Assembly: GCA_903876735.1 (NCBI GenBank)
Contig: CAIRAW010000010.1
Span: 1 to 64,000, forward strand
Length of the DNA: 64,000 nucleotides
Direction: 5' to 3'
Origin: an uncultured beta proteobacterium
GTDB taxonomy: Bacteria > Pseudomonadota > Gammaproteobacteria > Burkholderiales > Burkholderiaceae_C
Position numbers and translations under genes: made by a program. Below, piece by piece: positions 10,966 through 13,514 of the stretch. Numbering within the stretch: position 1 is the stretch's first letter; each line of letters begins with the position of its first letter. A model generated the notes under the pieces. That model was not told the DNA's origin, searched no databases, and saw only the letters and a list, made by a program, of their open reading frames with translations.

Positions 10966-12564
10966 ATGAGCAAAGCGACTGATCCCGGGTTGCCGCAAGG
11001 CGCCCCGCAAGACCGGGTAACAAGCCCGTACAGCTTGGCCGTGCGCCGCGTGGCCATCGACACCTACCGTGAAAACGTGGTCTACCTGCACCGCGAGTGC
11101 GCCGTTTACCGGGCCGAGGGTTTCCAGGCCCTGGCCAAGGTCGAGGTCCGGGCCAACGGGCGACGCATTCTGGCCACCTTGAACGTGGTAGACGACCTGC
11201 GCATCGTCGGCTGTCATGAACTCGGCCTGTCGGAAGACGCCTTTGCGCAACTTGGCGTCGAAACCGGCTACACGGTTTCGGTATCGCAGGCCGAAGCGCC
11301 TGAATCGATCGAAGCCCTGCACCGCAAGATCAACGGCGAGCGCCTGAACCGGGAAGATTTCGCCCGCATCGTGCGCGATATTTCTGCCCACCGCTACTCA
11401 AAGATTGAACTGTCGGCCTTCGTCGTCGCCACCCACCGCAACGAACTCGACCGCGAAGAGGTGTACTTCCTGACCGAGGGCATGGTCGAATGCGGCCGCA
11501 AGTTCGACTGGCACGAACACCTGGTGGTGGACAAGCACTGCATTGGCGGCATCCCCGGCAACCGGACTTCGATGCTGATCGTCCCGATCGTGGCGGCCCA
11601 CGGCATGCTGTGCCCCAAGACCTCCTCGCGTGCCATCACCTCGCCGGCCGGCACCGCCGACACCATGGAGGTTCTGGCCAATGTGGAACTGCCATTTGAG
11701 AAACTGACGCAAATCGTGCGCGACCACCACGCCTGCCTGGCCTGGGGCGGCACGGCCGAGTTGTCGCCAGCCGACGACGTGCTGATTTCGGTCGAGCGTC
11801 CGCTCGCGCTCGACTCGCCAGGGCAGATGGTAGCCTCCATCCTGTCCAAGAAGATTTCTGCCGGATCCACCCATCTCGTCCTCGACATCCCGATCGGACC
11901 GACGGCCAAAGTGCGCTCCATGCCTGATGCACAGCGCCTGCGCCGCCTGTTCGAGTACGTGGCGCAGCGCCTGGACCTCTCGCTTGATGTCGTCATCACC
12001 GACGGCCGCCAGCCCGTTGGCAATGGCATTGGCCCGGTGCTCGAAGCGCGCGACGTCATGCGCGTGCTGGAGAACGACCCGCGTGCACCGGCCGACCTGC
12101 GACAAAAGTGTCTGCGCCTGGCGGGACGCCTGATCGAGTTCAGCCCCGATGTGCGCGGTGGTGATGGTTTTGCCATCGCGCGCGACATCCTGGACTCGGG
12201 TCGGGCCCTGAACAAGATGAACGACATCATCACGGCCCAGGGCCGGAAAGCTTTTAACCACAATGATCCGCAACTGGGGAAATTGACGCTCGATGTTCAC
12301 GCCGCCACCGCCGGTGTGGTCGTCGGCATAGACAACCTGCAAATCGCGCGCGTGGCCCGTCTGGCGGGCGCGCCCAAAGTGGTCAATGCCGGCGTCGACC
12401 TGCTGCACAAACTTGGCGACACCGTGGCGGCGGGCGACGTCCTGTACCGGATCTACGCCGAGTTTGCGAGCGACCTCGACTTTGCGCGCCAGGCCTGCGA
12501 CAAATCAACCGGTTTCACCATCGGCAAAGCAGAAGACCTGCCACAGGTCTTTGTGGAATTCTGA
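10966..12564 (+). CDS. AMP phosphorylase / thymidine phosphorylase family protein
   Basis: Pyrimidine-nucleoside-phosphorylase-fold enzyme, 532 residues, longer than classical DeoA (about 440) because of an extra N-terminal domain of some 85 residues, as in archaeal AMP phosphorylase. The phosphate/ribose site is plain: KHCIGGIPGNRTSMLIVPIVAA (about residues 179-200), KTSSRAITSPAGTADTMEVL near 213 and the Gly-rich AWGGTAELSPADDVLISVE. The archaeal enzyme splits nucleoside 5'-monophosphates with phosphate to ribose-1,5-bisphosphate and base; bacterial relatives are usually annotated thymidine phosphorylase. I infer NMP phosphorylase activity from the architecture but cannot prove it. The stop overlaps the next start in TGATG, coupling it to a PRPP-synthetase homologue. 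No RuBisCO or ribose-1,5-bisphosphate isomerase is in the window. Confidence 0.85.
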   Translation: MSKATDPGLPQGAPQDRVTSPYSLAVRRVAIDTYRENVVYLHRECAVYRAEGFQALAKVEVRANGRRILATLNVVDDLRIVGCHELGLSEDAFAQLGVETGYTVSVSQAEAPESIEALHRKINGERLNREDFARIVRDISAHRYSKIELSAFVVATHRNELDREEVYFLTEGMVECGRKFDWHEHLVVDKHCIGGIPGNRTSMLIVPIVAAHGMLCPKTSSRAITSPAGTADTMEVLANVELPFEKLTQIVRDHHACLAWGGTAELSPADDVLISVERPLALDSPGQMVASILSKKISAGSTHLVLDIPIGPTAKVRSMPDAQRLRRLFEYVAQRLDLSLDVVITDGRQPVGNGIGPVLEARDVMRVLENDPRAPADLRQKCLRLAGRLIEFSPDVRGGDGFAIARDILDSGRALNKMNDIITAQGRKAFNHNDPQLGKLTLDVHAATAGVVVGIDNLQIARVARLAGAPKVVNAGVDLLHKLGDTVAAGDVLYRIYAEFASDLDFARQACDKSTGFTIGKAEDLPQVFVEF

Positions 12565-13514
12565 TGCAGGCGCACGCTGCGACGAAACCCGTTCTGCTGT
12601 ATTTCGAAGAGGAACAGCCCAGCGCAGAGCGCATCGCGCAGGCTGCCGGTCTGGCCCTGTTCCCGATCGAACGCCATCGTTTTCCCGATGGCGAACTCAA
12701 ACTTCGGCTGCCACCCGCGCTGGGGCCCCAGGTCGTGCTGCTGCGCACGCTGAACGATCCCAATGAGAAACTGGTCGAATTGCTGTTGGCTGCGCAAACC
12801 GCGCGCACGCTCGGCGCGCAGCACCTGACGCTGGTGGCGCCCTACCTCGCCTACATGCGCCAGGACATCGCGTTTCAAGCGGGCGAGGCCATCAGCCAGC
12901 GCGTCATCGGTTGTTTTCTGTCCACCCTGTTCGACGCGCTGATCACGGTCGACCCGCATCTGCACCGGGTCGCCAACCTGCAAGAGGCCGTGCCAGTGAC
13001 CCAGGCGATTGTGCTCAGCGGTGCGCCCCTGCTGTCAGACCTGATTGCCACGCGCCGACAGCGCCCGCTCCTGCTCGGGCCTGACGCCGAGTCGGCACAA
13101 TGGGTGGCCGTAGCGGCGGCCCGCCACGGCTTCGACCACGGCGTGTGCCAGAAGATGCGCCATGGCGATCATGCGGTTCAGCTCGAGCTGCCAGACATGG
13201 CCATCGCAGGACGGCAAGTTGTACTGCTTGACGACGTCGCCAGTACCGGCCAGACCGTGGCCCAGGCCGCGCGCTTGCTGCTGGCGGCCGGCGCCGCCTC
13301 GGTCGATGTTGCCGTCACCCATGCGTTGTTCGCGGGTGACGCGCTGCAGGTGCTGCGCGAGGCAGGTGTCGGCGAAGTCTGGAGCACCGACTGCATCGCC
13401 CATGACAGCAACGCCATCAGCATGGCCAGCGCCATCGCGGCCGCCTTGGTTGCCCTGCTGGACACTGGCATCAATGGAAAATCAGGCCCGGGCGCGCAAT
13501 CGCTGCTTTCTTGA
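12564..13514 (+). CDS. Ribose-phosphate pyrophosphokinase (PRPP synthetase) homologue
   Basis: Resembles PRPP synthetase, which transfers pyrophosphate from ATP to ribose-5-phosphate. Visible family marks: HRFPDGELKLRL near residue 35, PYLAYMRQDIAFQAGEAISQRV near 94 (the F..GE.IS form typical of archaeal-like enzymes), DPHLHR metal site near 130, the flexible loop QKMRHGD near 195 that keeps the catalytic Lys-x-Arg, and the PRPP loop VVLLDDVASTGQTV near 215. It is clearly different from the highly conserved housekeeping bacterial Prs. It overlaps the upstream phosphorylase by one base, so the two products are probably made together and act on pentose phosphates released from nucleotides. Confidence 0.82.
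   Translation: MQAHAATKPVLLYFEEEQPSAERIAQAAGLALFPIERHRFPDGELKLRLPPALGPQVVLLRTLNDPNEKLVELLLAAQTARTLGAQHLTLVAPYLAYMRQDIAFQAGEAISQRVIGCFLSTLFDALITVDPHLHRVANLQEAVPVTQAIVLSGAPLLSDLIATRRQRPLLLGPDAESAQWVAVAAARHGFDHGVCQKMRHGDHAVQLELPDMAIAGRQVVLLDDVASTGQTVAQAARLLLAAGAASVDVAVTHALFAGDALQVLREAGVGEVWSTDCIAHDSNAISMASAIAAALVALLDTGINGKSGPGAQSLLS

Follow-up and report, generated by a model that had tools for sequence, protein, structure and literature searches.

Two adjoining open reading frames (ORFs), ORF A and ORF B, lie on the forward strand of the window analyzed here, a 64,000-nucleotide stretch of DNA from an uncultured beta proteobacterium (Table 1). The pair sits on contig C10 of a 3.9-Mb genome with a completeness of 97.8%. 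A, of 532 residues, groups beside the adenosine monophosphate (AMP) phosphorylases of archaea, and B, of 316 residues, is an altered paralogue of phosphoribosyl pyrophosphate (PRPP) synthetase. Judged from sequence, the pair is likely a module for the salvage of RNA nucleotides. The two frames share one base, with the stop codon of A (TGA, 12562–12564) and the start codon of B (ATG, 12564–12566) merged in the TGATG that an earlier, sequence-only reading of the locus had pointed out, and translation of the two genes is likely coupled. The closest named loci for A belong to uncultured betaproteobacteria (89–90% identity), with Rhodoferax at ~80%.

Table 1. Features of the A–B gene pair, in window coordinates.
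Feature	Position	Strand	Remark
ORF A	10966..12564	+	AMP/NMP-phosphorylase clade; annotated by NCBI as a thymidine phosphorylase family protein (PRK04350/TIGR02645)
N-terminal domain of A, residues 24-110	11035..11295	+	In archaeal AMP phosphorylases compared; not in DeoA-type compared
KTSSRAITS motif of A, residues 218-226	11617..11643	+	Common to archaeal AMP phosphorylases; DeoA-type mostly MISGRGLGH
TGATG stop/start overlap of A and B	12562..12566	+	Translational coupling likely
ORF B	12564..13514	+	PRK07199-type PRPP-synthetase paralogue
HLHR of B, residues 132-135	12957..12968	+	His132 as in PRPP synthetases
Pyrophosphate loop of B, rewired, GPDAESAQW, residues 172-180	13077..13103	+	SPDxGGxxR in housekeeping enzymes
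Catalytic flexible loop of B, KMRHGD, residues 197-202	13152..13169	+	Lys-x-Arg kept; Asp202 specific to B family
Ribose-phosphate (PRPP) loop of B, DDVASTGQT, residues 223-231	13230..13256	+	Kept

By profile score, A belongs to the NCBIfam family PRK04350/NF003338 (703 bits, cut-off 434) and to TIGR02645 (614.9 bits, cut-off 434.6). Four models of pyrimidine or thymidine phosphorylases return only 143–195 bits, and A stays below the cut-offs of the DeoA models TIGR02643 (143 bits, cut-off 570.7) and PRK05820 (186.3 bits, cut-off 269). The predicted structure of A, with a mean predicted local distance difference test (pLDDT) score of 92.2, aligns with the AMP phosphorylase 4ga5 over 492 residues (22..520), N-terminal domain included; the thymidine and pyrimidine phosphorylases among the structure matches listed align from residues 109–113 of A. 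The 87 alignment columns of this domain (residues 24–110) are filled to 85–87 in 45 of 46 bacterial A rows and to 30 in the other one, to 75–84 in all 21 archaeal rows, and to 1–33 in the 18 DeoA-type rows. The extra domain of archaeal AMP phosphorylases, claimed for A in the sequence-only reading, is thus present.

The same grouping emerges from a tree of 85 rows built by a quick method, comprising the 46 bacterial A sequences, 21 relatives of the Thermococcus enzyme, and 18 DeoA-type sequences. Bacterial A forms one group beside the archaeal group and apart from the DeoA-type rows; the bacterial A and archaeal groups each occupy one side of a branch (support of 96 in the Shimodaira–Hasegawa-like approximate likelihood-ratio test, SH-aLRT). 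At 49 positions the bacterial A and archaeal rows are at least 93% fixed for the same letter, which is different or more loosely held in the DeoA-type rows; the window's A deviates at one of these, residue 298. At four further positions (R200, D363, A374, and D377), bacterial A and archaeal rows are each fixed, but for different letters; identity of A to the solved AMP phosphorylase structures is 38–42%. A plain DeoA is ruled out by profile scores, tree, fixed positions, and structure match together. Since these residues and the grouping are shared with the archaeal enzymes, A is predicted to split nucleoside monophosphates (NMPs) with phosphate into a free base and ribose-1,5-bisphosphate (R15P), and this first step is well supported by sequence. 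The enzyme of T. kodakarensis cleaves AMP, cytidine monophosphate, and uridine monophosphate to R15P (PMC9700705). As a side observation, many Thermococcus AMP phosphorylases, including P0241, bear PF10011 (DUF2254, a predicted membrane protein) in a precomputed Pfam column; this label may be a spurious domain hit. A strong DUF2254 match also adjoins A and B in locus L150 (3071–4594).

ORF B has the fold of the PRPP-synthetase family and belongs by score to PRK07199/NF005537 (385.7 bits, cut-off 322). It exceeds the cut-off of the broad model TIGR01251 (193.5 bits, cut-off 113) and falls below those of the archaeal model PRK00934 (207.4 bits, cut-off 296) and of PRK01259 (117.3 bits, cut-off 297), with the remaining PRPP-synthetase models scoring lower. 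When 116 B sequences were compared with 21 housekeeping and two archaeal PRPP synthetases, the ATP-site FxDxE and RQD, the catalytic Lys-x-Arg, and the ribose-phosphate loop of DDxxxTxxT type were found to be kept; the first Thr of the latter is Ser in part of the rows, as it is in housekeeping enzymes. The pyrophosphate loop, in contrast, reads PDxE[S/A] in all 116 B sequences, compared with PDxGG in all 21 housekeeping enzymes and PDxGA in the two archaeal sequences. In PRPP synthetases this loop lies at C1 of the ribose. Glu176, His134, Arg135, and Asp202 are each present in 116 of 116 B sequences, where the 21 housekeeping enzymes have Gly, Gly/Asp/Glu, Gln, and Ala/Pro, respectively, and Trp180 (115 of 116) replaces Arg. 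His134 and Arg135 occur in none of the other enzymes compared. The sequence-only reading had described B as keeping the Lys-x-Arg and PRPP loops while differing from housekeeping Prs, which holds. It had also called B archaeal-type; B is indeed a relative of PRPP synthetase, but that label is loose, as B forms a clade separate from all 21 housekeeping and both archaeal enzymes compared.

The partnership of the two genes is conserved well beyond the window. In the best 80 of 556 relatives, all of them close, A is followed by B at every one of the 80 loci (in L012 a contig end cuts B), and 55 of the 80 share the TGATG overlap. A phylum-wide sample comprised 299 Pseudomonadota genomes, all at least 90% complete and with that of the window among them. 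A is above its cut-off in 38 of them, with 41 copies, and B is found in 36, above the cut-off in 35 and at 299.6 bits in one. In placing B, a second-copy fragment of 261.9 bits at a contig end was counted and a 132-residue fragment of 162 bits left out; the next whole match below B scores 167.6 bits, so that B and other kinds are clearly separated. B never occurs without A among the 299 genomes, and it is directly downstream of A on the same strand at 36 of the 41 copies; at two others it is found ~4 kb upstream on the same strand, separated from A by other genes. Fisher's test of co-occurrence gives p = 2e-44 if genomes are taken as independent, which related genomes are not. Both trees divide first along the same line: with four A rows that lack a usable B (L128 and L152; L141 and L142) left out, the 16 and 26 rows of the B tree come from the same loci as the 18 and 28 rows of the A tree. 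In the B tree this first split has support of 99/96 and 100/99. The pair has therefore been inherited together. The A–B pair is real, widely conserved, and co-inherited, and the adjacency, which the sequence-only reading had asked to be surveyed, is not due to chance.

Other genes for R15P and PRPP were searched for in the same 97.8%-complete genome. No RuBisCO match was obtained, which rules out a link of the pair to that enzyme, and no R15P isomerase was found. The sole PF01008 protein was rejected as a candidate isomerase, being of MtnA type (474.7 bits, cut-off 271) and scoring 200 bits with the R15P isomerase model (cut-off 314.1); the ORF beside it presumably encodes a methylthioadenosine-phosphorylase-like protein. 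The earlier statement that neither enzyme is encoded nearby thus extends to the searched genome. A housekeeping Prs is separately encoded, so B is not the genome's only Prs.

One further gene family is linked to the pair in many other bacteria. When ORFs lying no more than 8.5 kb from A were clustered at 40 fetched loci of the phylum sample, some of them ended by contig ends, one family besides B and overlapping-frame artefacts recurred in 19 of the 40, encoding a protein of ~450–530 amino acids. The member that was scanned has metallo-beta-lactamase, beta-CASP, and RMMBL domains, and its closest solved relative is the ribonuclease TTHA0252. In a whole-genome search with this member, the beta-CASP gene adjoins the pair at 19 of the 41 copies, always on the same strand, 12 times in front of A (at 21–559 bases) and seven times behind B. 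The two placements speak for function rather than descent alone. Among the matches listed, a beta-CASP match of at least 100 bits occurs anywhere in 27 of the 38 genomes with A and in 58 of the 261 without it. As a separate observation, a broken A-like frame with one in-frame TGA (G210, contig C142, 10073–12455; 427.8 bits) stands head to head with a beta-CASP homologue, and may be what is left of a linked set that has decayed.

A likely counterpart of the three-gene set has already appeared in expression studies of Bradyrhizobium diazoefficiens. At 0.5% O2, bll3117 (thymidine phosphorylase family protein), bll3116 (ribose-phosphate pyrophosphokinase), and bll3115 (metallo-beta-lactamase (MBL) fold metallo-hydrolase) showed log2 protein changes of 2.1, 4.4, and 2.9 and transcript increases of 5.1-, 7.7-, and 15.4-fold, respectively (PMC6515984). 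All three are in the lenient list of that report (log2 change ≥1), outside its 66 statistically selected proteins, and in the part of PMC6515984 that covers them they are not marked as direct FixK2 targets. Deletion of fixK2 changed bll3117 by -6.6-fold and bll3115 by -30.6-fold, and an operon bll3117-bll3116-bll3115 was predicted with a putative FixK2 box, ATGATCTGGGTCAA (PMC9104804); in the relevant part of that source, bll3116 is named solely within the operon string. The box, 14 letters long, recurs unchanged upstream of A in loci L118 and L146 and with a single substitution in L147; all three loci have the gene order A, B, beta-CASP gene. From product names, order, and the identical box, bll3117-3116-3115 is likely the counterpart of A, B, and the beta-CASP gene. 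More widely, an FNR/FixK-type box with at most one mismatch precedes A in nine of 81 close sequences (the 80 loci plus the window; 1.7 expected) and in five of 40 phylum-sample loci (0.8 expected), where the expected counts come from shuffles that preserve base composition only, which makes the excess weak evidence. An exact box is present in one of the 40 (L117) and in none of the 81. By analogy, the low-oxygen induction reported in Bradyrhizobium would extend to the window's organism.

A route from RNA to PRPP can be proposed from these observations. A beta-CASP ribonuclease would supply NMPs from RNA, A would convert NMP and phosphate to a free base and R15P, and B would convert R15P and adenosine triphosphate (ATP) to PRPP and adenosine diphosphate (ADP), which is the simplest reaction for B and amounts to that of PhnN in another fold. 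B is the first candidate for the use of R15P because it never occurs without A, keeps its nucleotide and ribose-phosphate residues, and has a changed loop at C1; its substrate and product are likely those implied by the constant partnership and the altered pyrophosphate loop. RNA, in turn, would be the source of NMPs for A. Taken as a whole, this reading of A, B, and the ribonuclease is favored tentatively, at somewhat less than even confidence. The pair is predicted to recycle the ribose of RNA building blocks, likely under scarce oxygen. A little more doubtful, but still possible, is the broader version in which B is the first R15P-using enzyme of PRPP-synthetase fold and forms, with A and the beta-CASP protein, a low-oxygen RNA-recycling operon in place of the archaeal isomerase–RuBisCO exit; such an operon might turn RNA into free bases and PRPP or, catabolically, into ribose-5-phosphate and ATP for phosphoketolase.

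Several observations weigh against the proposed route. A narrowly misses the AMP_phos equivalog TIGR03327 (512.5 bits, cut-off 535). Two of the 38 A genomes lack B, and these carry the two longest A branches; one second A copy in the phylum sample also has no B nearby. With respect to B, the known ATP- and ribose-5-phosphate-binding residues of ordinary PRPP synthetases are kept, so that ribose-5-phosphate may still be its substrate, and the negatively charged Glu in the pyrophosphate loop leaves no obvious means to hold the C1 phosphate. A PhnN-like protein elsewhere in the genome (150.5 bits, cut-off 156), adjoined by what are presumably phosphonate-type ORFs, could turn R15P into PRPP; with this near-threshold protein present, R15P could still have an outlet should B act otherwise. 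As for the ribonuclease, 11 of the 38 genomes with A show no beta-CASP homologue reaching 100 bits among the matches listed, and no beta-CASP gene was found near the pair in the window or the 80 close loci, 49 of which have 5-kb flanks on both sides. The homologue in the window's genome is unlinked, on contig C50 (40% identity), where it keeps the HxHxDH motif and is adjoined by ORFs that presumably encode DnaJ and DnaK. Finally, a FixK-type box with at most one mismatch was not found upstream of A in the window, and bll3115, bll3116, and bll3117 were unchanged in soybean bacteroids (PMC6515984).

One alternative is that B is a second, ordinary PRPP synthetase, making PRPP and AMP from ribose-5-phosphate and ATP, with A removing the AMP or serving separate NMP turnover. 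This is rather unlikely given that a housekeeping Prs is already encoded in the genome, that no PRK07199 protein is found without A across the 299 genomes, and that the Gly-to-Glu change is found in 116 of 116 sequences.

A catabolic route is less probable than that. Here, B would move the C1 phosphate of R15P onto ADP or AMP, releasing ribose-5-phosphate; phosphoketolase and acetate kinase would process this further, and the ribose of RNA would thereby provide ATP at low oxygen. It is nonetheless a serious rival on account of its linked genes and their joint regulation. A phosphoketolase gene lies near the pair on the same strand in five of 40 loci (L129, L130, L131, L150, and L151); L130 also has a gene with an acetate kinase domain, and L129 one with a phosphate acetyltransferase domain. 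The phosphoketolase–acetate kinase unit bll2518-bll2517 is listed as FixK2-dependent, as is bll3117-bll3116-bll3115 (PMC9104804), and the phosphoketolase bll2518 is induced at low oxygen along with the three operon genes (PMC6515984, Table 2). Against this, the linkage holds in a minority of loci, and the linked type of phosphoketolase has no match in the window or the 80 close loci. Transfer of a phosphoryl group from a glycosyl phosphate to ADP is also expected, from general chemistry, to be somewhat uphill.

The remaining alternative, that A is the pyrimidine nucleoside (thymidine) phosphorylase of its public name and B an unrelated neighbor, draws on that name, a common fold, and 31 positions that A shares with both the archaeal and the DeoA-type rows, but is very improbable in view of the grouping of A with archaeal AMP phosphorylases, its N-terminal domain and KTSSRAITS, WGG, and PxGxxxK motifs, which the DeoA-type rows lack, and the conserved adjacency and co-occurrence with B.

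The surroundings of the pair are otherwise varied. In the window, 117 bases separate A from an upstream ORF (10295–10849), presumably that of translation elongation factor P, and a hairpin followed by T residues was spotted by eye between them. Two short ORFs lie behind B (13585–14310), presumably encoding a DUF883/ElaB-type, membrane-anchored-like protein and a holin-family (YqjE-type)-like protein. When 100 of 192 neighbor ORFs, from 20 of the 40 phylum-sample loci, were scanned together, the commonest among the 25 Pfam families listed were P-type ATPase (five members) and phosphoketolase (four), followed by GGDEF, CBS, ABC2-membrane, and HMA (three each) and BON, Usp, and others (two each). 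In nine of the 40 loci (L117, L125, L128, L130, L131, L137, L138, L139, and L147), the fetched stretch includes a gene of one cluster, of which the member scanned, from L138, encodes a copper-type P-type ATPase; CBS, BON, or universal stress domains are near some of these, as in low-oxygen islands. The phosphoketolases in the A/B gene string are strongly diverged in L129 (11343–13742), L130 (5131–7800), L131 (4803–7184), and L151 (4709–7066), with an XFP domain of 130–137 bits and no XFP_C match; three of them score 117–141 bits against NCBIfam cut-offs of at least 777. These may act on another substrate. The phosphoketolase of L150 is ordinary (XFP_N, 597.5 bits). Directly behind the A gene of L129 is a gene (6945–8363) for a protein with a MaoC-like domain fused to a phosphate acetyl/butyryl transferase domain.

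The A–B module would be a variation on the known R15P pathway, with B as the candidate for its second step. The sequence-only reading had suggested a salvage route from NMP cleavage to R15P or PRPP; in light of the grouping of A, the adjacency, and the departure of B from housekeeping sequences, this is the best, though tentative, reading. Added here are the beta-CASP partner, the strict co-occurrence, the rewired pyrophosphate loop, and the low-oxygen regulation published for the likely counterpart in Bradyrhizobium, through which a role at low oxygen can be tested in a tractable plant symbiont. No treatment of the A–B–ribonuclease set as a pathway was found in the open-licence PMC literature, and the gene set itself has been printed as table rows (PMC6515984, PMC9104804). 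This sister group is carried by about one in eight of the sampled Pseudomonadota genomes (38 of 299), and its public name suggests thymidine as the substrate: by score, A falls within PRK04350/TIGR02645, 'putative thymidine phosphorylase', whereas its residues and grouping predict NMPs as substrates. B is likewise a member by score of PRK07199/NF005537, the generically named 'ribose-phosphate diphosphokinase', whose tie to A is described here. If B does act on R15P, a reaction new to this central metabolic fold lies concealed behind a generic name.

Among known enzymes, A has the same full-length domain architecture as the archaeal AMP (NMP) phosphorylase (T. kodakarensis TK0352; PDB 4ga4/4ga5/4ga6; TIGR03327), to which it is joined by neighboring tree groups and the 49 near-fixed positions; it is set apart by the four positions fixed otherwise, the score below the equivalog, and a genome without R15P isomerase or RuBisCO. 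B resembles the PRPP synthetases of E. coli, B. subtilis, human, M. jannaschii (1u9y), S. solfataricus (4twb), and T. volcanium (3mbi) in fold and in its ATP, ribose-phosphate, and Lys-x-Arg residues, and departs from them in its PDxE[S/A] loop, H-L-H-R for H-A-[G/D/E]-Q, W for R at 180, and separate clade. PhnN, the ribose 1,5-bisphosphokinase known from phosphonate use, is of an unrelated family and catalyzes the reaction proposed for B (R15P + ATP to PRPP + ADP). R15P from NMP phosphorylase has so far been mainly an archaeal theme, in which it is consumed by the isomerase and RuBisCO, with some bacteria also mentioned (PMC9700705). The first step of this pentose bisphosphate pathway or NMP shunt, from NMP to base and R15P, is likely the same in the A–B module, whereas in place of the archaeal isomerase and RuBisCO there is a PRPP-synthetase paralogue and, often, a beta-CASP gene.

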